Shown: piece by piece, positions 2,342 to 51,480 of the stretch
How the letters are laid out: the number at the start of each line of letters is the position of its first letter
Numbering within the stretch: the first letter of the stretch is position 1
Source of the DNA: Nitrospiraceae bacterium
GTDB taxonomy: Bacteria > Nitrospirota > Nitrospiria > Nitrospirales > UBA2166
Assembly (NCBI GenBank): GCA_002726235.1
Contig: PBSN01000008.1
Span: 160,659-224,658, forward strand
Length of the DNA: 64,000 nt
Reading direction: 5' to 3'
Made by a program: the position numbers and the translations under genes
Notes under the pieces: model-generated
Told to the model about the DNA's origin: nothing
The model's database searches: none
Seen by the model: the letters and a program-made list of their open reading frames with translations, nothing else

Positions 2342-3880
2342 ATGCGGAAGACTAAACATACCTCACATAGCTCCCATATTGTGCAGAACGTTGGGCGGTA
2401 TGGTGTTGTGTGGCTAGTTGTAGCGAGTGTGATTCTTGCTCCAAGTAGCTTTGTCTTTGCTGCTGCTGTTGCCTATATCACCAATGGACCCAATGTTGAG
2501 CTCACGGGTAATGCGCGGAATATCGAAGCGATCGATACGATTGTGCATCAGAATGTGGGGACCATTGATCAGCGGTTTGGCATTGGAAAGTTGCCACGTG
2601 CTGTGACATTTTCACCAAACGGGAAAAGGGCCTATGTGGCAAACTTTAGTGATGACTCGGTTTCGGTCGTAACCGTCCGTTTTAATGAGGTTATCAACCG
2701 TGATATTGGTCCCGGTAATGACATTATTCGTGTTGGGGATGGACCTTTTGGCGTTGCAGTGACCCCAAATGGGAAACGGGCCTATGTGTCTAATGAACTG
2801 GACAATACCATCTCTGTCATCAACGTGGATACAAAAAGTCCTACATTTCACACAGTTCTGGAGACTATCTCAGTTGGGGAATTGCCAACGGGTATTGCCG
2901 TAACACCGGATGGCACAAAGGTGTATGTTGGACATCTTACTCGACAAGGAAGCGAAGTTCCTGCAACGTTGACGATTATTGAGGTTGCGACGAACAAGGT
3001 GCTTAAGACCATAGAATTTCAGCCACAGGAGTTTTCACGTCCACCGGCGATTGGGATGGTGACAATTCTGAACCAGGCATACGTGACGGGTGTAGCACTT
3101 GATAATGAGGGTGGTCAGAGTGTCAGCGTTATTGATGTATTGACTGATGAGGTCATCACTACCATTGGTGTGGGTGCACGACCATCAGACGTGGCGTTTC
3201 ACCCCGATGGAGCCCGCGCGTTTGTCGCAAATAGTGGTTCTCATTCGTTCTCGGTCATCAATACATTGACTGGGCAGGTGACCAACGAGATCGTCACGGA
3301 CCGTAATCCATGGGCCGTCGCGGTTGCGCCTGACGGATTAACCATGTATGTCGTATTTGCGGCAATTGATGAAGCGGCTATCGGGATTGCTGCGGTATTC
3401 GACATCGAGAGCTTATCTGCTAATCCGCTGGTTCCATTTGTCGAGCATGACGGAGCGTCAACGGATATTGCGATTCAGCCAGTTCTGAGGCTGAAGTCCC
3501 CTAATGGGGGGGAGGTGTTTCGATCTGGAGATGAGCAGGTTATCAGGTGGCGAATGATACAAGGAGGGGCGCAAAACGCTAGGACAATTGTCGTCGCGGA
3601 TCATGTAGACGTGAGCTATTCGCTGGATAGTGGTCGAACATTTGGGAACATCATTGTTGAAGGAGCTCCAGCACCGTGTCGAAAAACACGAACCTCGATA
3701 GAAGACGGCGTCGAAAATTCTGAAATCGATGTGTGCGAGAAGTTTGGTGGAGACAATCTTTGGATTGTTCCACAAGCAGACTCAGCTTCAGTACGCGTTA
3801 AAATTGTTGTGAGAGATGCGTCAGGTCAGGCCATTGCCACGGATTTCAGCAACGCTGATTTTACGATCTTGGCAAATTAG
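2342..3880 (+). CDS. Secreted YVTN beta-propeller protein with C-terminal Ig-like domain
   Basis: 512 residues with an N-terminal signal sequence (hydrophobic run about 22-42, ending VFAAAVA). The body is a beta-propeller of YVTN-type repeats, seen as recurring blocks such as FSPNGKRAYVANFSDDSVSV, VTPNGKRAYVSNELDNTISV, VTPDGTKVYVGHL and FHPDGARAFVANSGSHSFSV, covering roughly residues 45-370. The last 130 residues contain SPNGGEVFRSGDEQVIRW and a VSYSLDSGRTF strand, the pattern of the Kre9/KNH-like extracellular domain. Such proteins are exported and usually bind surface ligands or partners; no enzyme activity is implied. It lies 20 bases after hflC, so it may ride on that transcript, although a functional link is not known. 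Specific function unknown. Confidence 0.8.
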   Translation: MRKTKHTSHSSHIVQNVGRYGVVWLVVASVILAPSSFVFAAAVAYITNGPNVELTGNARNIEAIDTIVHQNVGTIDQRFGIGKLPRAVTFSPNGKRAYVANFSDDSVSVVTVRFNEVINRDIGPGNDIIRVGDGPFGVAVTPNGKRAYVSNELDNTISVINVDTKSPTFHTVLETISVGELPTGIAVTPDGTKVYVGHLTRQGSEVPATLTIIEVATNKVLKTIEFQPQEFSRPPAIGMVTILNQAYVTGVALDNEGGQSVSVIDVLTDEVITTIGVGARPSDVAFHPDGARAFVANSGSHSFSVINTLTGQVTNEIVTDRNPWAVAVAPDGLTMYVVFAAIDEAAIGIAAVFDIESLSANPLVPFVEHDGASTDIAIQPVLRLKSPNGGEVFRSGDEQVIRWRMIQGGAQNARTIVVADHVDVSYSLDSGRTFGNIIVEGAPAPCRKTRTSIEDGVENSEIDVCEKFGGDNLWIVPQADSASVRVKIVVRDASGQAIATDFSNADFTILAN

Positions 3881-3887
3881 GAGAGTG

Positions 3888-4115
3888 CTAGTCACGCTGG
3901 CGAGACTTTCTCGGCAGACCAATACAGAGGCTAGAAACGAGACCTAACACCAATCCGGAAACGAAAACCAAAACGACGCCTGCTACGGCAATCCGGGTTG
4001 TGAGTGGAGGTAAGGTGCCTGTCCATCGTCGACGCGGAAGCCCTCCAATAATGGCTTCTCCTCCAAGCCACTCTGAGGCTGTAATGTCGGGGTGTGGTTT
4101 GAGATTCTGGCTCAC
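3888..4115 (-). CDS. Small single-pass membrane protein, unknown function
   Basis: 75 residues. A GTG start read from 4115 is the first possible one, since an in-frame TAG lies two codons upstream; only a weak GGTGG precedes it. A polar N-terminal half (TASEWLGGEAIIGGLPRRRW) is followed by one clear hydrophobic helix at about 43-66 and a basic tail RKSRQRD. It converges on the YVTN gene with 7 bases between them. I do not recognise the family. The start is weak and the gene short, so it may not be real, but the composition looks like a protein and not like out-of-frame sequence. Confidence 0.45.
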   Translation of the reverse strand: MSQNLKPHPDITASEWLGGEAIIGGLPRRRWTGTLPPLTTRIAVAGVVLVFVSGLVLGLVSSLCIGLPRKSRQRD

Positions 4116-4296
4116 GTACTAGCCACCATATTCCATTCTAGGCAAGAATGTGTCGGCGAGTCAAGTTACGACCATGTGTTTCGGAGTGAGTATAAAGTCT
4201 TTATGTGGATAGGAAACGTATTTTCTTTTGAACACACACTGACTGACACTGATGCTGTCGACAATAGCACAGTGCGCAATGTGAAAAGGGGGAAGT

Positions 4297-4452
4297 ATGG
4301 AAGTAGAGTCTGGAGGAAAAAGGCCTGTTCGGCGACGGGAACTACCCATTGTCTCAGATGACTCAGAAGACATGGAACAAGCCATGCGTGAGTTCTTCGA
4401 TGAAGAGAAAGTCACGCATCAGCATGGAGAAGCTAAACCGGAACGAGACTAA
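4297..4452 (+). CDS. Small acidic ORF in front of rsmI
   Basis: A 51-residue ORF, ATG at 4297, preceded by AAAAGGGGGAAGT, a strong ribosome binding site at good spacing. The product is highly charged: an Arg-rich start (KRPVRRRELPIV) then an acidic part (SDDSEDMEQAMREFFDEEK). No membrane segment or cysteine. It overlaps the start of rsmI in another frame by about 29 bases, so it could couple or tune rsmI translation. I do not recognise a family. The good ribosome binding site, better than the one available to rsmI, is the main support. Confidence 0.45.
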   Translation: MEVESGGKRPVRRRELPIVSDDSEDMEQAMREFFDEEKVTHQHGEAKPERD

Positions 4453-5158
4453 AGAAGACTGCAATCAGGACCCTTCTCTTGGTGTTCTTTATGTCGTCAG
4501 TACGCCGATTGGGAATCTCGAGGATATTACCATTCGGGCTCTTCGTGTTCTCAAGGAGGTCAGGATCGTTGCAGCGGAGGATACGCGGCATACTCAGAAG
4601 CTTTTAAGTCATTATCATATCCATACTACGCTTACTAGTTATCATGACTTCAACAAAGAGCATAAGACCCCACTTCTCCTTCAACGACTTCGAGAAGGGC
4701 AGGATATTGCTTTGGTCTCCGACGCTGGGACGCCTGTCATTTCTGATCCCGGCTATTTTCTCATCACTCGGTGTGTGCTGAGCGGTATCAAGGTTGTTCC
4801 TCTCCCCGGAGCGTCGGCAGTGCTGGCGGCTTTGTCGGTTTCCGGTTTGCCGAGTGATACGTTTCTCTTTGAAGGATTTCTTCCTAGGCGGAGTGTCGCA
4901 AGACTGAAACGATTGGCTGCACTTAAGACTGAAGGACATACACTTATTATTTTCGAGTCTCCGCATCGTGTGGGAAAAACACTCGCTGATATAAAAACTG
5001 TGATGGGTGCCCGACGCGCTGTGCTTGCGCGCGAGCTAACCAAAAAGTTCGAAGAGATCATTCGCGGGACGCTCGATGATCTTATCCATTGTACAGAAAC
5101 ACGTAATCTCAAAGGGGAGATGACGCTATTGGTGGCAGCAGAAAAAGTTGAATGCTAA
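4424..5158 (+). CDS. rsmI: RsmI, 16S rRNA 2'-O-ribose C1402 methyltransferase
   Basis: Tetrapyrrole-methylase-fold enzyme that methylates the 2'-O of C1402 in 16S rRNA using S-adenosylmethionine. The hallmark motifs are present: VVSTPIGNLEDITIRA, AEDTRHTQKLL, ALVSDAGTPVISDPG, VPLPGASAVLAALSVSGLP and FEGFLPR. With the ATG at 4424 the protein has 244 residues; frame-open sequence extends further upstream with other ATGs (4349, 4400), but the conserved fold begins around residue 20 of the chosen start. None of the starts has a convincing ribosome binding site, which supports coupling to the overlapping small ORF. The C-terminus overlaps the oppositely oriented TusA-like gene by four bases. Confidence 0.92.
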   Translation: MEKLNRNETKEDCNQDPSLGVLYVVSTPIGNLEDITIRALRVLKEVRIVAAEDTRHTQKLLSHYHIHTTLTSYHDFNKEHKTPLLLQRLREGQDIALVSDAGTPVISDPGYFLITRCVLSGIKVVPLPGASAVLAALSVSGLPSDTFLFEGFLPRRSVARLKRLAALKTEGHTLIIFESPHRVGKTLADIKTVMGARRAVLARELTKKFEEIIRGTLDDLIHCTETRNLKGEMTLLVAAEKVEC

Positions 5159-5430
5159 GAGGTGTGCTTTTGTATCCACAGTCGTGCGTAAGATTCCAGC
5201 GGCTCAATCCTAAGAATGGTATATCCCTCTATCTCTACGCTTGCTCGCACGTTTTTTAATGGTTCGCCATGGTCGATGGTAACGATGAGGATAGCTCCAT
5301 TCTCCATGTCTTCAAGCCGAAGCTTGGTTTTGACAAAATTGAACGGGCACATGATGCCTCTAAGGTCTAGCTCCTCATCGGCCGTGAGTGCGGTATCCTG
5401 CATGGTGAGATAGGGTAAATGTTCCATCAT
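5155..5430 (-). CDS. TusA/SirA-family sulfurtransferase-like protein
   Basis: 91 residues with the TusA-family core LDLRGIMCPFNFVKTKL; Cys28 is the expected persulfide-carrying residue. The region after the cysteine (N-F-V-K-T-K-L) differs from classical E. coli TusA, which has C-P-E-P, and matches a branch of the family common outside proteobacteria. A conserved tail follows (DHGEPLKNVRASVEIEGY). Family knowledge says it relays sulfur for tRNA thiolation or cofactors; its placement next to and divergent from the molybdopterin operon suggests a sulfur-supply role there, which is inference. AAGAGAG lies just upstream of two adjacent ATGs (5430 and 5427). Confidence 0.8.
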   Translation of the reverse strand: MMEHLPYLTMQDTALTADEELDLRGIMCPFNFVKTKLRLEDMENGAILIVTIDHGEPLKNVRASVEIEGYTILRIEPLESYARLWIQKHTS

Positions 5431-5496
5431 GCTCTCTTAACTTGCCCCGCAAGACTACGGATGCTGCTTTGTGTATGTCAAGGTGCTCTTCGTTGT

Positions 5497-5526
5497 TTGA
5501 CAGAAATTCTTACCCCATTTTATAAT
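5497..5526 (+). promoter_or_regulatory. Near-consensus sigma70 promoter of moa operon
   Basis: TTGACA at 5497-5502 and TATAAT at 5521-5526, both perfect hexamers, separated by 18 bases. It lies 28 bases before the moaC ATG, so the expected transcript has a very short leader with little room for a molybdopterin riboswitch. Confidence 0.8.
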
Positions 5527-5554
5527 GCTTCCTTCGTAATTTCACACGAAACCC

Positions 5555-6094
5555 ATGAAAATGGATGATTTAACACATTTTAACGCGGATGGTAGAGCTA
5601 GGATGGTGGATGTGGGTGCAAAGGCGATGACCAATCGCACTGCAATGGCTCAGGCACGCGTTCTCATGCAACCCGAGACGCTTGTCAGAATTAGGGAGGG
5701 CCAGATTGCCAAAGGCGATGTACTGGCCGTCGCGCAAGTCGCAGGGACGATGGGAGCAAAACGAACGCCTGACCTCGTTCCCATGTGTCATCCGCTACTG
5801 ATTACAAGCGTCAACATGGCATTTAAGCATGACGTGACACCAGATGTGGATGGGCTTGGTAATATCTTAATTACTGCAGAGGTCAAAACGACTGGTCAGA
5901 CTGGAGTAGAAATGGAAGCTCTGACCGCGGTTTCTATAGCGGCGCTTACAATCTATGACATGTGCAAGGCGATTGATCGAGGAATGACAGTTACTGATGT
6001 GTGCGTACAGTCCAAAGCTGGCGGGAAATCGGGGACCTATAGACGACCATTGATGCGAGAGCATGATGCGACAATTGCAGCAGGGGAATCGTGA
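5555..6094 (+). CDS. moaC: MoaC, cyclic pyranopterin monophosphate synthase
   Basis: Second enzyme of molybdenum cofactor synthesis: converts the MoaA product 3',8-cyclo-7,8-dihydro-GTP into cPMP. 179 residues, slightly longer than usual at the C-terminus. Family signatures are clear: [66 protein letters not shown] and KAGGKSG. The ATG at 5555 has no obvious ribosome binding site; a second ATG two codons on is equally possible. It is first in a moaC-moaDE-moaA operon with gaps of a few bases, driven by the promoter just upstream. Confidence 0.95.
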
Positions 6095-6103
6095 TGGGGA
6101 GTG

Positions 6104-6805
6104 ATGACGATTAAGTTATTTGGGATACTGAAAGACCTAGCTGGCGGTAGGGATGAAGTGGTATGGCATCCTAGCCAAAATAGCCATTTGGTCAAGGATT
6201 TTGTGTGTGAACTTACCGGTCAGTTTCCTCAACTAGGAGAACTGATTCAAGAGAACAAGGTGATGATTTCGGTGAATCACGAGATTGCAACAGATGAAAT
6301 GTCCATTCACGCTGATGATGAGGTTGCGCTCCTTCCTCCATTTGCAGGGGGGGCTGGTACTCTTTCTGTTGCAGAAGAAGAATCTGTCTTGGTTCGCGTA
6401 CAGCGGGAAACTTTTTCCGTTGATCAGGAGATTGACCGTGTTCGAAACAGTTCAAAGATGATTGGTGGAATTAATGTGTTTTTGGGAACCGCGAGGGAGC
6501 GTTCGCAGGGGCGGGATGTGTCTAGAATGACCTTTGAATACTATGAAGGGATGGCGCAGAAAACAATGAGAGAAATCCGTGAGCGAGCCCTCAAGCAGTT
6601 TGATATTCGTGAGGTTCTCCTCATCCACCGATATGGGGAAATTGATATTGGCGAGAACATTGTCCTGATTGTTGTCGGTGCCGAACACAGGGCTGATGCA
6701 TTCAAAGCCTGCCAATGGTGCATTGATGAGCTGAAACAAATCACTCCTATTTGGAAGCTCGAGACAACTCCGTCCGGCAAAGTATGGGTGGAGCAGCACC
6801 CTTGA
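6104..6805 (+). CDS. MoaD-MoaE fusion, molybdopterin synthase
   Basis: A single 233-residue protein holding both subunits of molybdopterin synthase, which adds two sulfurs to cPMP. Residues 1-85 are MoaD, a ubiquitin-fold sulfur carrier ending in the strand LLPPFAGG. Residues about 95-233 are MoaE, with the HRYGEIDIGENIVLIVVGA core, the acceptor region FKACQWCIDELK and the active-site lysine in SGKVWVE. In separate MoaD the Gly-Gly must be the free C-terminus to be adenylated and thiocarboxylated; here it is followed by AGTLSVAEEE. Mycobacterial MoaX has the same layout and is cut after Gly-Gly, so cleavage is likely here too. ATG at 6104 is preferred over the adjacent GTG because GGGGA then sits at usable spacing. 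The stop overlaps the moaA start. Confidence 0.9.
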   Translation: MTIKLFGILKDLAGGRDEVVWHPSQNSHLVKDFVCELTGQFPQLGELIQENKVMISVNHEIATDEMSIHADDEVALLPPFAGGAGTLSVAEEESVLVRVQRETFSVDQEIDRVRNSSKMIGGINVFLGTARERSQGRDVSRMTFEYYEGMAQKTMREIRERALKQFDIREVLLIHRYGEIDIGENIVLIVVGAEHRADAFKACQWCIDELKQITPIWKLETTPSGKVWVEQHP

Positions 6806-7818
6806 TGCTTGCAGATTTCTATCACAGGGAACTTCGCGATCTTAGGATTTCTGTCACAGATCGATGTAATTTTCGGTGTACGTATTGTATGCCCTTTGAT
6901 GAATACGTCTGGATTGACCGGGAGAAGCTTCTCACGTTTGAAGAAATTACTCGACTCACGCGCCTTTTTGTTCAGTTGGGTGTAACCAAGGTGAGGTTGA
7001 CGGGGGGGGAACCTCTCTTACGATCTCAACTTGAGGGCTTGATCACACAGCTTGGTGAGGTACCTGGGCTCTCCGATATTTGTCTCACCACGAATGCGTC
7101 TAGATTGGTTGAGAAGGCCACTTCCCTTCGTGCTGCGGGCCTGAGTCGTATCAACATTAGTTTGGATACGTTGGATGGAGAAAAGTTCAAACGAATAGCC
7201 AAACGAGATAAACTTTCAGAAGTCCTTGCGGGCATTTTCGCTGCAAAAGCAAGCGGGTTTAAACCAATTAAGATTAATATGGTTGTGGAGCGTGGTGTCA
7301 ACGATGACGAGATCATCTCGATGATAGAATTTTGCCGAGAGCATGAACTCTCGCTTCGGTTTATCGAGTACATGGATGTGGGCAATGCAAACACTTGGAG
7401 TTCGAGTAAGATTGTGTCTAAGAAGGAAATACTTGAGCGGATTAGCAACTTTTACCCGACTCAGGATGGAGGTCGGGAGAAGGCCAGCGATCCAGCCGTC
7501 CAGTATGCGTTTTCGGATCGTCGTGGAGATATTGGATTTATTGCATCAGTCACTGAACCGTTTTGCACTAACTGTACGCGCGCGCGCTTAACTGCCGATG
7601 GGAAGTTCGTAACGTGTTTGTTCTCAAACGATGGTCTTGATCTCAAGACGATTCTGCGAGGTGGTGCCACAGATGAAGTCGTGACTGAGCTCATCACATC
7701 GGCATGGCAAAAGCGATCGGATCGGTATTCGGATGAACGTTTCGAAGCGCTCAACTCTTCCGAAGGGTATGATCCTCGTCTGCAGAAGAAGATAGAAATG
7801 ATTACATTAGGTGGGTAG
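6805..7818 (+). CDS. moaA: MoaA, GTP 3',8-cyclase
   Basis: Radical-SAM enzyme for the first step of molybdenum cofactor synthesis, GTP to 3',8-cyclo-7,8-dihydro-GTP. With the ATG at 6805, which overlaps the previous stop (TGATG), the protein has 337 residues. The radical-SAM cluster is C21-x3-C25-x2-C28 (DRCNFRCTYCMP), followed by LTGGEPLLR. The second 4Fe-4S site is the CTNCTRARLTADGKFVTC region with its three cysteines. The C-terminus ends in Gly-Gly, as MoaA needs for activity. Complete and canonical. Confidence 0.95.
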   Translation: MLADFYHRELRDLRISVTDRCNFRCTYCMPFDEYVWIDREKLLTFEEITRLTRLFVQLGVTKVRLTGGEPLLRSQLEGLITQLGEVPGLSDICLTTNASRLVEKATSLRAAGLSRINISLDTLDGEKFKRIAKRDKLSEVLAGIFAAKASGFKPIKINMVVERGVNDDEIISMIEFCREHELSLRFIEYMDVGNANTWSSSKIVSKKEILERISNFYPTQDGGREKASDPAVQYAFSDRRGDIGFIASVTEPFCTNCTRARLTADGKFVTCLFSNDGLDLKTILRGGATDEVVTELITSAWQKRSDRYSDERFEALNSSEGYDPRLQKKIEMITLGG

Positions 7819-7890
7819 GCAATTAAAGAGGGTTTGATATTAAAGCAAAGTGCATGCATCGATAGCATGAGATAATGGAAAGGATGACCA

Positions 7891-8169
7891 ATGCCAGTAG
7901 TTCATACATCAACAATTAAACGTGCCAGGCAAGCCGAACAACGCCGTCTCCGAAACAAGGCTGTTCTTTCAAGGGTAAAGGGTGTTGTCAAAAAAACTCG
8001 TAGCGCTATTCAAGAGAAGGACAGTAACGCAACAAAAATACAGCTTCAGGCTGCTCAGGTTGCTTTGCACAAAGCAGCATCGAAAGGGGTCATTCACCGA
8101 AATACCGCATCGCGTCGATTATCTCGTCTCGCGCGGGCGGCGAATGCATTGGCATCCTCGTCGAGCTAG
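7891..8169 (+). CDS. rpsT: 30S ribosomal protein S20
   Basis: 92 residues, very basic and helical, with the S20 pattern HTSTIKRARQAEQRRLRNKA near the start, a middle KATRS-like helix (VVKKTRSAIQEKD) and the conserved KGVIHRNTASRRLSRL near the C-terminus. It binds the bottom of 16S rRNA. An AAAGGA lies upstream of the ATG. It converges on holA, with 26 bases between stops. Confidence 0.93.
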   Translation: MPVVHTSTIKRARQAEQRRLRNKAVLSRVKGVVKKTRSAIQEKDSNATKIQLQAAQVALHKAASKGVIHRNTASRRLSRLARAANALASSSS

Positions 8170-8195
8170 CTTCTCTTCTCGTATCATCATATTTC

Positions 8196-9236
8196 TTATG
8201 GCACTGTCGTTTCGCGACACAGTGCTATCACCAAGGCGTCGAGTACGATGACGGGAGGCTGTCCACCGAATCCCTTCAAGCGTGAGTCGGCCTCAGCAAT
8301 GCTTGCAAATGCAGCCCGCAAGTCATTGGTCGTAAATTGGCCCACCTGTGTCAGCAGCGATTTCACGCGAAATGATGAAAGCCCGGCAGTCTTTGCCAAC
8401 GCGTCAGGAGTAAGCCTCGTTCCATTTACATCCTGTGTTAATGATTTTACTTTCCAGAGTTGGCGAAACTGCGTGGTAAGGAGTGCAAGGAGTCGTAATG
8501 GGGGCTCACCCGCCTCGATGGTTGCTCGCATGGTGAGTAGCGCAGAAGCGAGGTCGCGACGCCCAATGGCGTTGCAGATTTCAAAGACAGAGTCGATTGA
8601 CTCTCCAGCAAGTAGCGCTTGGATATCTGCGAGGGTTGCGTGTGTGTGGGGTGTAAGGTAGGTTGCAAGCTTATCCAGTTCATGCTTCACAGTATAGAGG
8701 TCTCGTCCGCAAGCGCTTGTCAAAAGGACAATGCCAGGTTCATCAATACGTAGTCCGATGGTTGCGCTATATTGGCGAATCCAGCGAGGGATATCTCTGC
8801 TTAGCAGAGGTGCGCACTCAACTAGGACTGCGGATTTTTTGAGGGTCTGAGTAGCTTTGCTCCGACCATCGAGCTTGGTTCCGATTAGCGCTAAGCACGT
8901 GCTTGCTACTGGATCTATCACATAGGCCTGGAGGGCGTCTAAAGAACGGGGGCGAAGTTTGTCAATGTGTTTCACCGCTACAAGACGACGTGACGCGAAG
9001 ACAGGCAACGTCTCACAAAACGTGAGAATTTCTTGAGCATCGGAATCTTCTCCAAAAACGAGATCATAGTTGAATGCCTCGGCGGCATCTTTCAGCGTCG
9101 ATTTTTTGAGCGCAGCTAGGCACGAATCAAGCAAAAACTCCTCCTCTCCAAGAAAGAGATAGACCGGCGCTGGTATGACTTTGTTTATCTGGGCAAGAAA
9201 GGCGTTTGGTGTTGTCGTTTGTCGCGGTGTGGCCAC
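8196..9236 (-). CDS. holA: DNA polymerase III delta subunit
   Basis: Clamp-loader delta subunit that opens the beta clamp. 346 residues from a GTG start. It shows the HolA N-terminus PVYLFLGEEEFLLDSCL, a region FCETLPVFASRRLVAVKHID matching the LPLFSERRLV-type motif used to bind the clamp, and the C-terminal collar domain (RPLRLLALLTTQFRQLWKVK-like segment, here EPPLRLLALLTTQFRQLWKV). It begins nine bases after lptE on the same strand, as in many genomes, and ends facing rpsT. Identification rests on motifs plus the leuS-lptE-holA order. Confidence 0.9.
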   Translation of the reverse strand: MATPRQTTTPNAFLAQINKVIPAPVYLFLGEEEFLLDSCLAALKKSTLKDAAEAFNYDLVFGEDSDAQEILTFCETLPVFASRRLVAVKHIDKLRPRSLDALQAYVIDPVASTCLALIGTKLDGRSKATQTLKKSAVLVECAPLLSRDIPRWIRQYSATIGLRIDEPGIVLLTSACGRDLYTVKHELDKLATYLTPHTHATLADIQALLAGESIDSVFEICNAIGRRDLASALLTMRATIEAGEPPLRLLALLTTQFRQLWKVKSLTQDVNGTRLTPDALAKTAGLSSFRVKSLLTQVGQFTTNDLRAAFASIAEADSRLKGFGGQPPVIVLDALVIALCRETTVP

Positions 9237-9245
9237 GAGAATATC

Positions 9246-9887
9246 TTATTTCTTGGAATTATTCTTCTTATCTTTGCGTTGTTGGGCTTCGTATCGGCCA
9301 AGAAGCTGGCCGATCAGAATATTTGCAAATGACGCACTGGCTTCCTCTATCGCTCGGTCTTGTGCCGATCGATTCAAAGTGAGGTCTGGACCCAAGTAAA
9401 ACGCCGCGCTAGCCTTGATCGTCTCGCGCCAAAGAGGTTGTTGCTTCCCGGGGTTCTCTGCTTGGACGACGATCGAAAGTTCGACATCCTCTTCAGTGGC
9501 AGCACGCTGATCAAACGCTGTGGTTCTTGTACGGTACCGGATGATGCTCCCTCTGACGATAATATCTGCGCTCTGCGCATTGTTCACCACTTGAATGCCT
9601 GGAGTTTTCAACATTGCGTCTTTGATGCCTCTGGTAACCAACAATCCAAGTTTAGGCTCACTGGTTTTATTCTGAAACATGGGTATGTCGACATGCAACG
9701 TTGATCCTGTCGGATTCCCTGCTCCGTGGCCAAGGTGGTATCCGCATCCAGAGGTGATGAGCACGAAGAAGGCAGAGAACACGATGACCAATGCTCTTGA
9801 GCGAGACTGGTGCCGAACGTTTTGAGGTTCTGGAGAAACGAGGCTACTGGACCATTCAAAAAAACTCAAGGCATGCTTTTTCAGCAT
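9246..9887 (-). CDS. lptE: LptE, LPS-assembly lipoprotein
   Basis: Outer-membrane lipoprotein that plugs the LptD barrel during LPS export. The protein has a hydrophobic signal ending in a lipobox, VLITSGCGYHLG, with Cys as the lipidated residue; the C-G-Y-x-L start of the mature chain is typical of LptE. A Lys-rich tail (RKDKKNNSKK) closes it. The ATG at 9887 gives 213 residues with an unusually long stretch (about 45 residues) before the lipobox; a TTG close to the hydrophobic core would give a normal signal length, so the start is uncertain. It sits between leuS and holA. Confidence 0.85.
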   Translation of the reverse strand: MLKKHALSFFEWSSSLVSPEPQNVRHQSRSRALVIVFSAFFVLITSGCGYHLGHGAGNPTGSTLHVDIPMFQNKTSEPKLGLLVTRGIKDAMLKTPGIQVVNNAQSADIIVRGSIIRYRTRTTAFDQRAATEEDVELSIVVQAENPGKQQPLWRETIKASAAFYLGPDLTLNRSAQDRAIEEASASFANILIGQLLGRYEAQQRKDKKNNSKK

Positions 9888-9891
9888 CCTG

Positions 9892-12507
9892 CTATACAAC
9901 GAAATTGACGAGCCGCTGTTCCACATAAATCACCTTGCGGGTTGTCTTGCCCTGTAACCATGAAGACATTTTTGGTTCCTTCCGTGCCTTTTCGACAACT
10001 TGTTCTTCTGTCCAATCAGGGGGGATGCCTTCAACTTTGCCTCGAGTTTTACCGTTGATTTGAATAATGATTGTCAAAGGCTCTTCCTGAAGGAGTGCGG
10101 GATCATGCTGTGGCCATGAAGAGTGAAGAACATGTGAGTCATTGCCCAATGCGTCCCACATTTCTTCAGCGATATGTGGGGCAAATGGTGACAAGAGCAT
10201 CACCAGTGCATCAAGCGCTTCTTTCATGACCCCAAGTGTTTTTGAGTCGTTCTTGATCGCGTCGGTTATCGGGAATCCAAATGCATACAGCACATTCACG
10301 AGTTCCATGATTGCACTAATGGCGGTGTTGAATTGGAATTCACGTTTGATGTCTTGCGTCACCTTGCGGATGCGATGATGGACCTGACGGCGTAAGTCTC
10401 GTGATGTTTGAGGGATCTCAGTTACAGTGTTCTGCACTGGACTAGGATCGAGAGTTTTGAGGATCTCTACATACTCAGCAACAAGGCGCCAGACACGATT
10501 GAGGAATCTCGCTGCTCCCTCGACTCCGTCATCACTCCATTCCAAGTCTTTTTCTGGTGGTGCGGCAAAGAGTGAAAAGAGCCGGGCCGTATCGGCGCCA
10601 TATCGTTTGATCAACTCTTCAGGATCGACAACATTATTTTTTGACTTGGACATCTTCTCGATTCGACCAATTGAAATAGTATTGCCACAGTGTGTGCAAT
10701 GGTGGGTGTCTGTCGCATCACTTGGTAGGATAAATCCGTGTTTTGGACAGTGATATGTCTCTTTGCACACCATGCCCTGTGTGAGCAAATTCGTAAATGG
10801 TTCACTGACTGTGGTCAATCCGAGATCTCGAAGGACCTTGGTAAAAAATCGTGCATATAGGAGATGTAGGACGGCGTGTTCAATTCCTCCGATATATTGA
10901 TCAACCGCCATCCAGCGTTGACTTGCGTCAGGTTCGATCGGAAGATCGGTTTGGTGTGGTGAGGTATAGCGCAAAAAATACCATGAGGAATCCACGAAGG
11001 TATCCATCGTATCAGATTCTCGTGTGGCTTGATTTCCGCAATCTGGACAGGTGGTATGGGCAAATTCAGCAACATTTTTGAGCGGCGATCCTCTCTTTCC
11101 AGTGAACGGAACATCTGGGGGGAGGATTATGGGTAAGTCTTGTTCCGGCACAGGAACTAGTCCGCATGTTGGGCAGATAATCATTGGGATCGGGGTGCCC
11201 CAATAGCGTTGTCGTGACACTCCCCAATCACGGAGTCGGTAGTGTACCGTTCGGGTTCCATGTTGTTTTTCTTCGATCCACCGCGCGATCTGAGTCCTTC
11301 CGTCCTTGATTGGAAGGGTGGAAAAATTATCTGAGTTGACGAGATATCCGTCTTCTTGCGTGTATGCCTCGTTGAGATTGTTTTGGTCGAGAGTGCAAGT
11401 TGGGTTTTGGATGACAAGTCTGATGGGGAGTCCATATTGCTGCGCAAACTCGAAATCCCGTTGGTCATGTGCTGGAACGGCCATAATTGCGCCCGTCCCA
11501 TATTCATAAAGTACGAAATTGGCAACCCAAATTGGAATCGCATCACCGGTCAATGGATTTCTGGCATAACATCCGGTAAACAGCCCCTCTTTCGCTGAAC
11601 TGGCATCGGTGCGGGTGTTTCGATCCTGCCGGCTGATGCGGGTCACAAATTCATGAACCGCCTGTTCTTCTTTCCTGCCCTTGACCAACAGATCGACTGC
11701 GGGTGATTCAGGTGCTACGCTCATAAATGTTGCACCGAAAATCGTATCTGGGCGTGTGGTGAAAATTCGGATCGATGGGAGTTCAGGGGGACTATCAATA
11801 ACTTGGAAATCGACCTCGACGCCATCGCTTTTGCCGATCCAATGCCGTTGCATGCTCAAGACACGTTGTGGCCATCCTGTAAGAGTGTCGCAGGATGCGA
11901 GGAGTTCTTCGGCATAGGCGGTGATTTTAAAAAACCATTGATCCATTTCCTTGGGAAACACCTCGGAATCACAACGCCAGCAACGGTTGTCGATCACCTG
12001 TTCGTTGGCAAGGACGGTCTCGCATGATTCGCACCAGTTGACAGGAGAACGCTTTTTATAGGCCAGGCCGCGTTGATACATCTTGAGAAATATCCACTGG
12101 TTCCATCGGTAATAGGATGGATTGCAGGTCGCGATTTCCCTAGTCCAGTCATACGAGAGACCAATGCGCTTCAATTGGTCGCGCATCGAGGCAATATTGG
12201 CCTGAGTCCATTCGGCTGGGTGGATGCCTTTTTCGATCGCGGTATTTTCAGCTGGCAGCCCAAAGGCATCCCACCCCATTGGGTGGAGAACGTTAAAGCC
12301 ACGCATGCGATGGAACCTGGCAAGGACGTCTCCGATGGTATAATTTCTGACGTGGCCCATGTGGATACGACCCGATGGGTAGGGGAACATCTCAAGGCAG
12401 TAGTATTTCGGCTGACTCGGATCGTCCTCAACATTGAACGTGCCTTGTTCGGCCCAGTGTGTCTGCCACCGTGCTTCTATTGTCTGCGGATCGTATTTCG
12501 TTTTCAT
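9892..12507 (-). CDS. leuS: Leucyl-tRNA synthetase
   Basis: Class I aminoacyl-tRNA synthetase charging tRNA-Leu. Starting at the ATG read from 12507 ([15 protein letters not shown]) it has 871 residues, the normal bacterial length. The HIGH-type motif is [11 protein letters not shown] at about 42-52 and KMSKS ([13 protein letters not shown]) lies near residue 617. The zinc cysteines in [14 protein letters not shown] and the CP1 editing domain ([11 protein letters not shown] and the D-x-R-D-F-E-F region) are present. An in-frame extension of 24 codons upstream looks non-conserved and is left out. First gene of the leuS-lptE-holA set. Confidence 0.95.
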
Positions 12508-42057: not shown

Positions 42058-43042
42058 TTAATCCCGGACCATTTCACGTTTTCCGCTTTGAGCCGATCGG
42101 TAGCATGCTTGTGCGATTGCCAATGAGGCAAGGCCATCATCGACTGTAATCTTCAGTGGCTGTTTTCCTCGAAACGCTTGAGTGGCATCTCTTAACACGT
42201 TTATGACGGTCATCGCGGGCTCTCCAACGTTGATTGGCCGTGATCCTTTCTGGTCGAGGAATTCTAACGCATTGCGCATGTGATCGCCTAGGAGCATGCC
42301 CTTTGGGCCGATAAGATCAACGCGTCCATGGCGGCCTTGAACGTATTTCGACCCTTCAAGGGTAATCTGTACTCCATTACGGGTTTCCATGATTGCAGTG
42401 AATCTATCTTCTACCTCTCTTTCTAACACATGGCCATAGATGCACGACACGTGCCTGACTTCGTCTTTTGTGATAAATCGTGCCAGATCCAAAGATATGA
42501 ACGCCCGTCTGAATGATATTCCCTCCACCTGCCGTTGCTTTCTTATGTTCCCAGTGAAGGGGCTTATGCTCAAGACGTTGTGACAGAATGAGGCCGACAA
42601 GATTCCCAATCCGAGTTTTATGTTTTGTGATTGCAGTGATGACATTTGAGTATCGCAGGGTGTGGGCGAAAAACAATTTTACGCCTTTGCGTGCTGCTTT
42701 TGAAACAGACTTCGCAATAGCTTTCCCTTCTGTGAGGGTAGGGGCAAGGGGTTTTTCCAGAATGACGTGCTTGAACGCTTCTAATGCCGCAATTGCAATC
42801 GGTCGATGTAACGAACATGGAACACAGATAACGACCGCATCAACATCTGGGTTTTGAAGTAGTGTTTGCCATGTTGGTTCCCAATGAACTCCGAGAGCGC
42901 CTGCTTCTTTTTTGCCTTTGCGCTGGTCCACCCGGGTTACTGCAACGAGTGCCGCGTGGTTTGTGTCATTGCGGATGTGTCGGATGTACCGTTCTCCTTG
43001 ACGACCCATGCCGATGACGCCATATCTGATTTGATCTCTATT
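42058..43042 (-). pseudogene. Gfo/Idh/MocA-family oxidoreductase with a single-base frameshift
   Basis: NAD(P)-dependent oxidoreductase family gene split into two frames. The N-terminal part (from ATG at 43042, MNRDQIRYGVIGMGRQGERY) has the Rossmann motif and the E-K-P signature in ILEKPLAPTLTEGKAI. After GGGNIIQTGVHIF the frame drifts into nonsense, while the next frame continues with DLARFITKDEVRHVSCIYGH and a normal C-terminal domain to the stop at 42058. The whole span is 985 bases, which is 328 codons plus one base, so one extra base near 42489-42490 (GG in TTTGGATC) explains it. A restored protein of about 327 residues is full length. Either a recent inactivation or a sequencing or assembly error. 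Confidence 0.85.
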
Positions 43043-43056
43043 CATCGGATATGCAC

Positions 43057-43106
43057 AAAACCCATGAGAGCCTTCCGCATAATAGTGAAAGGCCCTCATG
43101 GGTTTT
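43057..43106 (-). terminator. Terminator downstream of ahcY
   Basis: A long hairpin, AAAACCCATGAG...CTCATGGGTTTT, with an inner GCCTT/AAGGC pairing around an AT-rich loop. Read leftward it begins 26 bases after the ahcY stop and ends with TTTT. Being symmetric at its ends it could work in both directions, but only ahcY needs it. Confidence 0.65.
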
Positions 43107-44806: not shown

Positions 44807-45559
44807 ATGAAAGAGAAAAACATCCTGTTGGTCTTCATTCTGATCACACTACTGCTTGGAGGAGGTTCTGCAGCAGCATACAATGCAATATTGATTGACC
44901 ATGGAGCCACCGTCCGTGGCTATGTTACGTATACGGGTGTAGTTCCTGAATCCGATATTTACTATATGCAGAAAAATCCTCGGGTGTGCGGTCAAGCACG
45001 TGATGCAAAAGATGGAACGCGTTCCGTGTCAATGGTTCGTGTTGATGAGAGAATGCTTAAGGATGTGGTGTTGTATTTGGATGGTGTTACTGCAGGCAAG
45101 CCGTTTTCCAAAGACTTCTCAGATTTTTCTACATTTCGGTCTCGATGGTGCACCTGGGAACCACGGATAGGGGTTTTTGTAAATGGAGAGCCTATTACAA
45201 TCGTCAATCTTGATTCTGTCGTCCACAATCCAATTGGATATGAAACTATTGGGCGTGCACGCCTGAATCACTTTAATGTTCCATTGCATATGGAAGAGTC
45301 GCAATTTCACATGCCGGTGGTGTTACGTAAGGGGAAGGTGCTGAAACTTGAGTGCCTGCAGCACCAATTTATGCACAGTTGGATCTTTGCAGTTGATAAT
45401 CCGTATTTCGCAATCGCTGGTGATCATGGCGATTTTAGAATAGGGGACATTCCTCCTGGCAACTATTCGTTAAACGCATGGCATCCTACGTTAGGCCACA
45501 AAAGCAAATCTGTAACGGTTGTGGCTAACCAGACCCTAGAGGTGACGTTTGAATTTTGA
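44807..45559 (+). CDS. Secreted cupredoxin-like protein with carboxypeptidase-regulatory-like end
   Basis: 250 residues with an N-terminal signal sequence (ILLVFILITLLLGGGSAAA). The middle holds a plausible type-1 copper site in plastocyanin order: His140 in SVVHNPIGYE, then Cys183, His186 and Met189 in LECLQHQFMHSW. The C-terminus (PYFAIAGDHGDFRIGDIPPG then YSLNAWHPTLGH) is the beta-sandwich seen in carboxypeptidase-regulatory and methylamine-utilisation-type proteins. An extra Cys pair occurs near residues 66 and 110. Electron transfer or copper binding in the periplasm is inferred. It overlaps the following transporter gene by 11 bases. Confidence 0.75.
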   Translation: MKEKNILLVFILITLLLGGGSAAAYNAILIDHGATVRGYVTYTGVVPESDIYYMQKNPRVCGQARDAKDGTRSVSMVRVDERMLKDVVLYLDGVTAGKPFSKDFSDFSTFRSRWCTWEPRIGVFVNGEPITIVNLDSVVHNPIGYETIGRARLNHFNVPLHMEESQFHMPVVLRKGKVLKLECLQHQFMHSWIFAVDNPYFAIAGDHGDFRIGDIPPGNYSLNAWHPTLGHKSKSVTVVANQTLEVTFEF

Positions 45560-46835
45560 TGACTCTCATCTGATTATTGCAACAACGATTTTTGCATTGA
45601 CCTACGCTCTGATTGTTTGGGAGCGCTTTAACCGAGCAGTGGTGGCGTTATCTGGTGCGGTGTTGATGATTCTTTTTGGGATGATTACCCAAGAAGCGGC
45701 GATTCAAGGAGTAGATTTTAATACCATCGGCCTACTTGTCGGAATGATGGCCATGGTGACTATTTCTCGCCAGACGGGGATGTTTGAGTACGTCGCTATC
45801 TTGAGTGCAAAGATGATGAAAGGAGATCCATGGGGATGTTTGGTGATGCTCTCTGTGGTGACGGCGGTGTTTTCCGCCCTTCTCGATAACGTGACCACCG
45901 TGATGTTAATTGTTCCAATTACATTGCTGGTCACAGAGGAACTGAAAGTATCGCCATATCCGTTTCTTGCCGTAGAAATTCTCGCTTCGAATATTGGTGG
46001 TGCTGCAACGCTTATCGGAGATCCCCCTAATATTATGATTGGAAGCGCTGCTCATCTGACATTTATGGACTTTATCATTAATGTCGCGCCGCTCATGCCG
46101 TTTGTGTTTATTGCAACCCTTATCCCTGTTTGGTTTATCTTTGGGCGGAAGATGGCGGCCGATCCGAAGGATCGGGCGAAAATCATGCAGTTCAATGAGC
46201 GCGATGCCATCCGGGATATCGTGCTACTTCGCAAGTGTTTATGGGTCCTCGGATTGGTTGGGGCTGGGTTTATCTTTCAGCACCCTCTCCATCTTGAAGC
46301 GGCAACGATTGCACTAACTGGAGCTGCGTTACTGTTCCTAATTAGCGGGGCAGATTTTCATGAAAATATTGAAAAGATCGAGTGGACGACGATTTTCTTT
46401 TTTATTGGACTTTTTATTGTGGTAGCTGGCATTGAACATGCCGGTTTACTTACCATCATGGCGCAGTGGGTATTGGATGTGACGGAAGGGAGTCCTTCTG
46501 CAACCGTTCTCATGATCCTTTGGGTTTCGGCCGTCCTCTCGGCGCTCGTGGACAATATTCCATTTGTGGCAACTATGATTCCAATGATTAAGGAAATGGA
46601 AGGACCTTTTGGTGGAGAAGAAGCCCTTTTGCCGCTGTGGTGGGCATTGTCTATCGGGGCATGTTTGGGCGGCAATGGTAGTCTGATTGGGGCATCTGCA
46701 AATGTCATCGTGGCGGGATTTGCCGATCGCGCTGGTCATCCCATCGGCTTTATCCGCTTCTTACGGATTGGATTTCCACTTATGCTGCTGTCTATTGTAA
46801 TCAGTACGGGTTATGTGTATTGGCGGTTTATTTGA
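45549..46835 (+). CDS. ArsB/NhaD-type ion transporter
   Basis: 428 residues, about 11-12 membrane helices, ion-transporter superfamily (ArsB/NhaD/P-protein). The two inverted halves each carry the family's paired motifs: SALLDNVTTVMLIVP and IGGAATLIGDPPNIMIGSAA in the first, SALVDNIPFVATMIP and LGGNGSLIGASANVIVAG in the second. Homologues exchange sodium for protons or move arsenite; sequence alone does not choose. It begins at a TTG (45549) inside the end of the previous gene, with AGAGGTGA at correct spacing, so the two are translationally coupled. A CBS-domain gene follows after 54 bases. Confidence 0.87.
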   Translation: MNFDDSHLIIATTIFALTYALIVWERFNRAVVALSGAVLMILFGMITQEAAIQGVDFNTIGLLVGMMAMVTISRQTGMFEYVAILSAKMMKGDPWGCLVMLSVVTAVFSALLDNVTTVMLIVPITLLVTEELKVSPYPFLAVEILASNIGGAATLIGDPPNIMIGSAAHLTFMDFIINVAPLMPFVFIATLIPVWFIFGRKMAADPKDRAKIMQFNERDAIRDIVLLRKCLWVLGLVGAGFIFQHPLHLEAATIALTGAALLFLISGADFHENIEKIEWTTIFFFIGLFIVVAGIEHAGLLTIMAQWVLDVTEGSPSATVLMILWVSAVLSALVDNIPFVATMIPMIKEMEGPFGGEEALLPLWWALSIGACLGGNGSLIGASANVIVAGFADRAGHPIGFIRFLRIGFPLMLLSIVISTGYVYWRFI

Positions 46836-46889
46836 TTGGAGCGTTGGGATGGTGTTTCGATATGTACGAGGTTTGAAGGTGAGGACGAT

Positions 46890-47339
46890 ATGATTGTACG
46901 AGAAATCATGACAACCGATGTGCGTTTTGTGACTGGTGATATGACGATTGAAGATGCGGTCGGTATGATGCGAAAAGCGAAAGTACAAACGATCCCCGTG
47001 GTTGGGCCGGATGGTCTTTTCGCGGGGATGTTTACTGTGAGAATGTTCTTAAAGAAAGCATTGCCCGCGTATATTCGAAGTGGAGATTTACCGGATGTTC
47101 GATTTGCGCCAGACTTGCCGCAATTTCATGAAACTTTGAATCAAATGAGGACGGCGGCGGTTTCGACTGTCATGGACGTAAACCATCCCACTGTGGTCGC
47201 GGAAAATTCTGCGCTGGAATGTGCTGCGTTGTTGATTAACACGAAGCGGCGTATCCGAAGTGTCCCTGTGGTCAACGCAGCGAATCAGTTGATCGGGCTC
47301 GTCACAGGGTGGGATATCATCAAAAACCTCTATCAATAA
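46890..47339 (+). CDS. CBS-domain pair protein
   Basis: 149 residues made of two CBS motifs: VREIMTTDVRFVTGDMTIEDA ... IPVVGPDGLFAGMFT and VSTVMDVNHPTVVAENSALE ... VPVVNAANQLIGLVTGWDI. Such pairs bind adenine nucleotides and act as sensors. Located directly after the transporter on the same strand; a gate or regulator of that transporter is a reasonable inference, since CBS pairs often control ion transporters. GAGG lies five bases before the chosen ATG; an upstream open frame is not conserved-looking. Confidence 0.88.
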   Translation: MIVREIMTTDVRFVTGDMTIEDAVGMMRKAKVQTIPVVGPDGLFAGMFTVRMFLKKALPAYIRSGDLPDVRFAPDLPQFHETLNQMRTAAVSTVMDVNHPTVVAENSALECAALLINTKRRIRSVPVVNAANQLIGLVTGWDIIKNLYQ

Positions 47340-47408: not shown

Positions 47409-47444
47409 GTGACTGCCCCTCAATTATTCATGAGAGGCAGTCAC
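47409..47444. terminator. Convergent stem-loop between CBS gene and CHRD gene
   Basis: GTGACTGCC-C-CTCA pairs with TGAG-A-GGCAGTCAC around an AT-rich loop: 13 base pairs with one mismatch. Sits between two converging genes, 69 bases from one stop and 22 from the other. There is no T-run on either side, so termination would be imperfect or Rho-aided. Confidence 0.45.
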
Positions 47445-49537: not shown

Positions 49538-50179
49538 ATGAAAAGTACAAACTCTAATGCATCTTCGATAACACTTACGTTGGGTATATATACTGCGTGT
49601 ATCGGCTTTTCCTTGGTCATTTCTGGAGGGAGTGTAGCGATTGGATATCTTCAACACGATGAAGATATCTTGATAAAGGCTGGTCAATCTATGCCAGTTG
49701 CTGGGGCAGAGCCTCTTCCGGATCTTCCGGATGTAACCCTGACTACTCAGGATGGTCAAGCGGTTCGTTTTCACGATCTGTTGGATAACCAGCTTTCAAT
49801 CATTAACTTTATCTATACTTCGTGCAGTAATGTATGTCCTCTTACCACTGCAAATTTTGTCCAACTAAAACACCTAGCGAGTGATCTGGATTTCCAAATG
49901 ATTTCCATTTCCATCGATCCGAAACGAGATACCCCAGCGCGTTTGCAAAAGTTTATGCAAGTCCAGGGTGCTCTGTCACCACGTTGGACATTTCTCACTG
50001 GGTCGTCCCGTGCAATTATGCCGTTGCTTGGAGGCTTTGGGTTTTACGATGTTGCAGTTGATGATCACTCGCCCGGTGTGGTGATCTGGGATGGGAGGAA
50101 TATGCAGTGGACTCGCCTCGTGAGTCTTCCGCCTCCCCACATTTTACTTGAGGCATTGCAAAAGTTTTTTCCGGGGTGA
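49538..50179 (+). CDS. Sco1/SenC-family copper chaperone
   Basis: Thioredoxin-fold protein that helps deliver copper to the CuA site of cytochrome oxidase or to other copper enzymes. 213 residues with one N-terminal transmembrane helix (about 12-37). The copper ligands are C96-x3-C100 (YTSCSNVCPLT) and His177 in DDHSPGVVIW; the stretch SISIDPKRDTPARL is family-typical. The stop lies within a 12-base tandem repeat shared with the start of the next gene. Confidence 0.88.
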   Translation: MKSTNSNASSITLTLGIYTACIGFSLVISGGSVAIGYLQHDEDILIKAGQSMPVAGAEPLPDLPDVTLTTQDGQAVRFHDLLDNQLSIINFIYTSCSNVCPLTTANFVQLKHLASDLDFQMISISIDPKRDTPARLQKFMQVQGALSPRWTFLTGSSRAIMPLLGGFGFYDVAVDDHSPGVVIWDGRNMQWTRLVSLPPPHILLEALQKFFPG

Positions 50180-50196
50180 CATTGGGGGTGACATTG
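50173..50196 (+). repeat. Perfect tandem 12-base duplication at sco1/HEAT junction
   Basis: GGGGTGACATTG occurs twice in direct succession (50173-50184 and 50185-50196). The first copy contains the sco1 stop TGA; the second supplies the ribosome binding site just before the ATG at 50197. Confidence 0.9.
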
Positions 50197-51480
50197 ATGA
50201 GTAGGCTGATGGCAGTGGGGATCGTTATGATGTTAATGGGGTCTGTTTGCTTGGCTCATGCCGATCAGATGGATGACGTTGTCCAGACTCTAATTCGTGA
50301 AGCGAGTGAAGAATCTTTAGAGGACGTTGAATCTACACTGCTGAGGCTTGGTCCCATGGCTGTCGATTCATTAGTTCGCCTGCTCGCATCAGATGATAAC
50401 GCGTTGCGGATGACTGCGGTTCGTGTGCTCGGAAGTATGGACCATACCATTGATGAGAAACTATTTCAGGCACTTCGGGATGATAGATGGAAGGTGCGAG
50501 TTGCTGCAGTGAGCGCATTAGCACATCATCAATCCGAGATGGTTGTAAAACACCTCCTCACCAAACTGCACGATTTGCACCCTTCGGTTCGTTCCGCTTC
50601 CGCTAGAGCACTTGGACGGATTGGAAATGCTGAGGCGATTGACAGTCTTATCCTGGCGCTACAGGACGCGCAACGGATAGTGCGCAAGAGTGCTGCAAAA
50701 GCTCTCGGACGAATTGGGGATCCTCGTGCAATAGTGCCGCTGATAGCGATTCTTCAAGAGGGTGGTGTCGTACAGAGGGAGTCAATGCGTGCATTGGCAC
50801 ACATCGGTCCACCTGCAATTCAGCCGCTCTCGGCAATTGTTTCCGATGGGAATCAAAACGCTTCTGTTCGACAGATAGCAGCGTTGGTATTGAGGGAAAT
50901 CGCTTTACTGGAGCGTGTGACTTCGATAGCGGACAGTGTTCCTGCTCTTGGTGTTGGGTTGAGGGATAACGATGCTGGCGTCCGTCAGGCCTCTGCTGAT
51001 GCGCTCGTCATTATTGGCCAGCCCGCCGCCGATCTTCTGCGTACTGCGTTGCTGAACGATCTAGATCCAGGAGTGCGCGCTGAAGCTGCAACCATCTTTG
51101 GACGTAGTGGTTCTGCCACAGCTTGGTATGCGGAAGCTGTGGACGCGCTAATTCTTGCACTTGCTGACCAAGAGGAGCATGTTCGTGTTGCTGTACGAAC
51201 GGCGCTTATTCGGATTCATGTCATTGCGCATGGGCAACTTGTTGCTGCATTGAATGATAAAAACCCCGTTCGCCGGATGGGGGTAAGTGAGGTGCTTGGT
51301 GCCATTGGGCACCGTGGGTCAATTCAGCCACTTGAGACGCTTCGCAAGATCGAGTTAGATCCTGCCGTTCGAACGTCTATTGAGTCGGCTTTGGAGGTGT
51401 TGCATGCGAAACCAAGCGCCAAAATGCCATCTCTCCCCTCTCCATCAACCTTGAAAGGTTCTCGTTCAAGCGGGTTTTGA
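50197..51480 (+). CDS. Secreted HEAT-repeat protein
   Basis: 427 residues with a signal peptide (MSRLMAVGIVMMLMGSVCLA, cleavage near AHA). The mature part is an array of about ten HEAT/PBS-lyase-type repeats of roughly 31 residues, each with the A-x-x-A-L-G-R-I-G or similar helix pattern (for example SASARALGRIGNAEAIDSL, SAAKALGRIGDPRAIVPL). Acts as a protein-binding scaffold in the periplasm; partner unknown. GGGGGTGA at correct distance selects the ATG at 50197. Follows the Sco1 gene by 17 bases on the same strand, so one transcript is likely. Confidence 0.85.
   Translation: MSRLMAVGIVMMLMGSVCLAHADQMDDVVQTLIREASEESLEDVESTLLRLGPMAVDSLVRLLASDDNALRMTAVRVLGSMDHTIDEKLFQALRDDRWKVRVAAVSALAHHQSEMVVKHLLTKLHDLHPSVRSASARALGRIGNAEAIDSLILALQDAQRIVRKSAAKALGRIGDPRAIVPLIAILQEGGVVQRESMRALAHIGPPAIQPLSAIVSDGNQNASVRQIAALVLREIALLERVTSIADSVPALGVGLRDNDAGVRQASADALVIIGQPAADLLRTALLNDLDPGVRAEAATIFGRSGSATAWYAEAVDALILALADQEEHVRVAVRTALIRIHVIAHGQLVAALNDKNPVRRMGVSEVLGAIGHRGSIQPLETLRKIELDPAVRTSIESALEVLHAKPSAKMPSLPSPSTLKGSRSSGF

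Follow-up and report, generated by a model that had tools for sequence, protein, structure and literature searches.

The window analysed here is the whole 64,000-nucleotide stretch of a Nitrospiraceae genome (G000; 1.87 Mb, 90.65% complete). Three consecutive genes, here called A, B and C, had been predicted within it in one direction, with an 11-base overlap followed by a 54-base gap, and the open reading frame listing reproduces this arrangement exactly. All three frames lie on the forward strand, A and B sharing bases 45549–45559 and C being separated from B by bases 46836–46889 (Table 1). A further open start for C, a TTG, is present at 46836. Sequences resembling Shine-Dalgarno elements precede both B and C. 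A scan for promoters and terminators returned no more sites than were found in shuffled sequence. Between C and a convergent CHRD gene, an inverted repeat (GTGACTGCC / GGCAGTCAC) occupies positions 47409–47444; it was not called by the terminator scan and may be a terminator that lacks a T run.

Table 1. Features of the A-B-C cluster, in window coordinates
Feature	Position	Strand	Remarks
Gene A	44807-45559	+	250 aa, ATG start
Product of A	44807-45559	+	predicted secreted two-domain protein: cupredoxin within carboxypeptidase-regulatory (transthyretin-like) domain
Predicted signal peptide of A	44807-44878	+	residues 1-24, ..SAAA before Y25; putative cleavage site read from sequence
Cupredoxin domain of A	45113-45394	+	residues 103-196; VIA matches
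His140 of A, first putative copper ligand	45224-45226	+	invariant in 59
Cys183-x2-His186-x2-Met189 loop of A, putative copper ligands	45353-45373	+	invariant in 59
Shine-Dalgarno-like AGAGG ahead of B	45538-45542	+	inside A; from sequence
Gene B	45549-46835	+	428 aa, TTG start
First S-x3-D-N site of B	45873-45890	+	Ser109, Asp113, Asn114; alignment with NhaD-like and ArsB rows
GDPPN loop of B	46017-46031	+	residues 157-161, Asp158; no variation at D158 or N161 among B-like rows
Second S-x3-D-N site of B	46539-46556	+	Ser331, Asp335, Asn336; invariant in B-like rows
Shine-Dalgarno-like AAGGTGAGG ahead of C	46876-46884	+	from sequence
Gene C	46890-47339	+	149 aa, best start ATG 46890

The cupredoxin encoded by gene A and its family

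The four residues proposed as type-1 copper ligands of A are found at the positions claimed for them, the loop codons lying at 45353–45355 (C183), 45362–45364 (H186) and 45371–45373 (M189). In a 59-row alignment of the A family all four are invariant, as are C61, C115, D136 and H226. An AlphaFold (AF2) model of A (pLDDT 91, pTM 0.84) starts with a helix at residues 3–17, followed by low pLDDT at residues 18–22. Its best Foldseek match is a blue copper protein of Nitrosopumilus (5fc9, E 1.9e-5), which the A-family profile also matches weakly (E 0.019). In VIA comparisons, A was superimposed on amicyanin (1mda; Z 10.5, rmsd 2.2 over 85) and on plastocyanin (7pcy; Z 11.2). Residues 103–196 of A aligned to amicyanin 18–105, the last aligned residue, 196, pairing with amicyanin 105. 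If the end of this alignment is ungapped, C183, H186 and M189 of the model fall on amicyanin C92, H95 and M98; these three are copper ligands of amicyanin, M98 being named in structure entry titles. The Greek-key cupredoxin fold of the model and the invariant ligand residues thus support the prediction of a cupredoxin-type protein. By analogy with amicyanin, A is most likely a one-electron carrier on a type-1 copper site.

A shares with amicyanin and plastocyanin the fold and the His...Cys-x2-His-x2-Met ligand set, with a loop of amicyanin length, but differs from them in its low identity (about 16%), in lying within a carboxypeptidase-regulatory-like domain and in being invisible to the Pfam cupredoxin models. 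A further match, from residues 35–250, is to the carboxypeptidase N C-terminal domain (2nsm; Z 10.4 over 75 aligned residues); the cupredoxin of A is therefore nested within a transthyretin-like domain. At E ≤ 0.01, Pfam CarboxypepD_reg matched 59 of the 59 A-family members, with the window protein below the curated cut-off, and the cupredoxin models of Pfam and NCBIfam matched none. In the literature searched, we found no paper joining the terms 'carboxypeptidase regulatory-like' and 'cupredoxin'.

Of 196 genomes of the order, 194 encode members of the A family, and a single genome can carry as many as 15. It is thus a large multicopy cupredoxin family of the Nitrospira order to which standard libraries give just the label 'carboxypeptidase regulatory-like', and part of the copper electron-transfer equipment has therefore probably been overlooked. 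Neighbours of A relatives at about 100 loci are for the most part multicopper oxidases (25), a LolA-like protein (38), SmbP-like proteins (11) and further A genes; the first three labels are our own reading of the sequences rather than the outcome of a family search. The multicopper oxidase, LolA-like and SmbP-like neighbours point to copper and periplasmic redox chemistry. Ion carriers adjoin an A-family gene at approximately three of these roughly 100 loci, and the idea that A generally accompanies ion carriers was accordingly rejected.

Several individual loci deserve mention. An A-family gene from the same genus lies 58 bases upstream of a calcium/sodium antiporter gene (L080, G012:C414), and another A-family gene lies 57 bases upstream of a ClC-like channel gene (L121). 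A further family member occurs in the source genome, in an arsenite-oxidase/iodate-reductase-like cluster (L217, G000:C13:55000-74500, positions 3479–11411) composed of a MauG-type protein, a Rieske subunit, a molybdopterin subunit, the A-family cupredoxin, a second MauG-type protein and a cytochrome c. Both the Rieske and the molybdopterin subunits score over the NCBIfam arsenite-oxidase cut-offs, and the layout resembles that of idrABP1P2. The source genome has four PF00384 molybdopterin genes (one formate-dehydrogenase-like, two NuoG-like and one arsenite-oxidase-like). No NarG-type nitrite oxidoreductase is among these four in the 90.65% complete genome, so this member of the Nitrospirales may not oxidise nitrite. 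Near the A-B-C cluster, at 49538–51480 on the forward strand of the window, a SCO1-family gene overlaps a gene for a HEAT-repeat protein by four bases; SCO1 proteins function in copper insertion in oxidases.

The carrier encoded by gene B

Gene B had been proposed to encode an ArsB/NhaD carrier with paired LDN/GDPPN motifs. Both motifs are present, LDN at D113-N114 and GDPPN in the loop, together with a VDN at D335-N336. B matches Pfam CitMHS with an E value of 3.9e-95 and Pfam ArsB with 81.6 bits, and its assignment to the ion-transporter superfamily stands. The two triads S109/D113/N114 and S331/D335/N336, which are 96–100% conserved among B-like rows, align with S162/D166/N167 and S401/D405/N406 of HhNhaD1, residues of its Na1 and Na2 sites whose mutation kills or impairs the protein (PMC9408914). 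The ion site of B is thus NhaD-like. Distant similarity to VcINDY was also seen, with the SNT substrate motifs of VcINDY being DN pairs in B.

The ArsB part of the proposal did not hold. The LfArsB structure gives the arsenite-contacting and proton-coupling residues of that carrier (PMC13381914); D112, D148, D370, K374, N158 and S380 of LfArsB correspond to V, N, C, N, D and A in B. LfArsB and B have in common the superfamily and the hairpin Asn residues N111 and N337, but the arsenite-site Ser, Asn158 and the proton-coupling residues are not kept in B, and the two fall in separate tree groups. In this tree, a quick maximum-likelihood search over B-like, NhaD-like and ArsB rows, ArsB stood apart (support 100) from B and the NhaD-like rows, and the NhaD-like rows formed a group of their own on a long branch. 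Residue mapping, tree grouping and a score of 91.4 bits against a cut-off of 415 for the ArsB model TIGR00935 led us to reject B as an ArsB.

Membership of NhaD, NhaB or MamN was likewise rejected by model cut-offs, and NhaD-like action was retained. B scored 52 bits with the NhaD model TIGR00775 (cut-off 577) and 34.8 bits with the NhaB model TIGR00774 (cut-off 826); the best-scoring NCBIfam model, that of MamN (NF040989), reached 206 bits, yet this is under its 500-bit cut-off. With NhaD and NhaB (PMC9408914), B shares the superfamily, the paired S-x3-D-N hairpin sites and the GD loop; it differs from them in its scores far below the cut-offs, its grouping apart from NhaD, the GDPPN form of the loop and the adjacent CBS protein. 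From these sequence features, B is most likely an elevator-type Na+/H+ (monovalent cation/proton) antiporter that is NhaD-like but outside NhaD. At three loci of families f22 and f27 (L171, L172 and L173), B homologues are extended at the N-terminus by a fused exported domain some 130 residues long, which in L173 gives a weak CarboxypepD_reg match (E 1.9e-4).

Gene C and conservation of the gene order

C is a stand-alone CBS pair, as predicted, with two CBS domains over the Pfam cut-off (75.7 bits). The nucleotide motif of CBS domains is G-h-h-T/S-x-x-D. It is kept in the second domain of C (GLVTGWD), and the first domain is without the Asp (GMFTVRM), which is lost in C of this order and retained by relatives elsewhere. 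An adenine nucleotide is the most likely ligand of C, bound between the two CBS domains. An inter-domain stretch, SGDL-x-x-V-x-x-APDL, is common to C and its relatives in G088, in family f13 and, nearly, in family f4, which argues that these CBS genes are one family.

The A-B-C order is not unique to the source genome. It recurs, on one strand, in two further genomes of the same genus, G008 and G004 (UBA2166, UWMA-0026), whose proteins are 84/81% (A), 94/91% (B) and 87/79% (C) identical to those of the window and whose A and B genes overlap by 14 bases. The gene content 3' of C differs in G004, and the G008 contig ends at that point; an upstream SAHH gene also lies within the synteny of the three close genomes. 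Among the other loci examined, none beyond the genus has the A-B-C order, and A is absent from every inspected B-C locus outside the genus. Named relatives were mostly Nitrospirales and Nitrospira records.

B and C, by contrast, keep company well beyond the genus. A CBS-pair gene adjoins B in 24 of 50 inspected loci and in 11 of 15 Nitrospirota families, a fraction that is indicative since the 50 loci were picked from best matches; two f22 loci within the 24 were counted from the open reading frame listing, the automatic count having missed them. In G088 and at each of the nine f4 loci the CBS-pair gene follows B, whereas elsewhere in the phylum it usually lies upstream (f9, f10, f11, f12, f13, f17, f25 and, with a divergent CBS gene, f22). 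The B and CBS genes often overlap or nearly touch. As the source genome has fewer than 10 CBS-domain genes, about two of them stand-alone pairs, the probability of a chance adjacency to B is well under 1%. In the supported tree group that holds B (SH-aLRT 98), 11 of 11 rows have an adjacent CBS gene; many other B genes are without a CBS neighbour, including 17 of 18 in family f3. The adjacency across loci and families makes B-C the conserved unit. A-B-C is therefore a genus-level arrangement atop a phylum-wide antiporter/CBS pair, with the copper-protein gene a local, lineage-specific addition ahead of it. The proposed three-gene order exists in three genomes of one genus; at the loci inspected outside it, only the B-C part is kept.

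In other genomes, B neighbours include SulP genes with STAS domains, DabA with Mrp-type genes, ND4/ND5-type antiporter genes, Na/Ca exchangers, Trk genes and Usp, all related to Na+, H+, K+, Ca2+ or bicarbonate. At L065 (G061:C52, 3957–10817), DabA (E 2.5e-270) and Mrp-type genes are divergent from a B-C pair, an arrangement that links B-C to inorganic carbon uptake. In several Nitrospirota families (L177, L187, L189), a divergent gene for a Na/Ca exchanger (about 340 aa) lies close to B-C, and L181 (G283:C11, 3694–9707) has a tandem CBS-B-B-CBS array beside TrkA- and TrkH-like genes.

The original prediction knew of no described system of this kind. This needs qualification, since carriers named NhaB have been reported beside BicA-like genes in Nitrospira marina and Ca. 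Nitrospira alkalitolerans, as Na+/H+ antiporters whose Na+ extrusion was proposed to drive bicarbonate uptake (PMC8115632, PMC7784846). The two layouts match, with carriers beside SulP/BicA and Mrp-/Nuo-like genes as at L064–L070 and L075, and we infer, from layout and with the sequences unaligned, that the published 'nhaB' genes are B-type genes. The passages on NhaB and BicA contain no occurrence of 'CBS' in PMC7784846 and none of 'cupredoxin' in PMC8115632, so that in these passages the partners of B go unmentioned; in the source genome, the one SulP gene is on a different contig (G000:C15) and a cupredoxin gene stands ahead of B.

Possible roles of the cluster

We consider it probable, with moderate confidence, that the cluster combines a conserved B-C ion-homeostasis module, a CBS-regulated Na+/H+ antiporter, with a lineage-specific, co-expressed electron-transfer cupredoxin. 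B would exchange Na+ (or another monovalent cation) for H+ through its two hairpin sites, as NhaD does, and C would sense an adenine nucleotide and adjust B to the cell's energy state. A would be exported to the periplasm and act, like amicyanin, as a one-electron carrier with type-1 copper; in this genus it would be made alongside B, probably since both work for the respiratory membrane. In favour of this explanation, A-B-C is found in three genomes of the genus with the frames of A and B overlapping; the B-C adjacency, the NhaD-like sites of B, the ion-related neighbours of B-type genes, the published NhaB carriers and the fold and ligands of A also speak for it. Against it, C retains the canonical nucleotide Asp in just one of two CBS domains, many B genes are without a CBS neighbour, A is missing from B-C loci outside the genus, and B groups apart from NhaD and scores far under the NhaD, NhaB and MamN cut-offs. 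The antiporter–CBS pair turns up repeatedly in a phylum that includes major nitrifiers and other chemolithotrophs, and this suggests that adenine nucleotides set Na+/pH homeostasis, and perhaps bicarbonate uptake, in those Nitrospirota with B-C.

A could instead be a passenger, one paralogue that landed upstream of B-C and is co-transcribed with it without a shared function. The multicopy nature of the A family, its varying neighbours and the restriction of A-B adjacency to this genus are consistent with this. Since A is missing beyond the genus and SAHH shares the synteny, the A-B linkage argues only weakly for a shared function. However, the frame overlap and the gene order have been kept at 81–94% protein identity while the downstream gene changed, and we regard a mere passenger as rather unlikely.

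It is improbable that B is a Na+-coupled carrier of an anion, bicarbonate or an organic acid, a role hinted at by its Pfam family name, CitMHS. The strong CitMHS match, the distant similarity to VcINDY and the inorganic-carbon genes near B-type genes are compatible with such a role, but the replacement of the VcINDY SNT motifs by DN pairs is as in Na+/H+ exchangers.

Direct redox or metal control of B by A, the exchanger originally suggested, is speculation. A would dock on B in the periplasm, the redox state of its copper would gate the carrier and C would provide an energetic input. The A/B gene overlap kept in three genomes, the N-terminal domain fused to f22 and f27 B homologues (in L173 weakly CarboxypepD_reg-like, a type of domain found in A too) and the A relatives at L080 and L121 would fit. 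But A is missing from the B-C loci of all other families, the few A-family loci that adjoin ion carriers could be due to chance, and no cupredoxin is known to us to gate a carrier; we hold this reading very doubtful. We give still less credence to the idea that a blue-copper protein in the periplasm and a nucleotide sensor in the cytoplasm jointly gate one Na+/H+ antiporter, tying ion exchange to cellular energy charge as well as to the redox state of the respiratory chain. Least probable of all is that B exports arsenite and A serves arsenite oxidation: the Pfam ArsB score and the A paralogue in the L217 cluster are in its favour, but the residues replaced relative to LfArsB (Asn111 and Asn337 aside), the separate tree group of true ArsB and the low TIGR00935 score speak against it.

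Elsewhere in the window, a Gfo/Idh/MocA-type gene on the reverse strand (42058–43099) is split into two overlapping frames of 231 and 195 aa. Its G004 counterpart is a single 328-aa frame (L062:7710-8696), and the split is either a frameshift or an assembly error.
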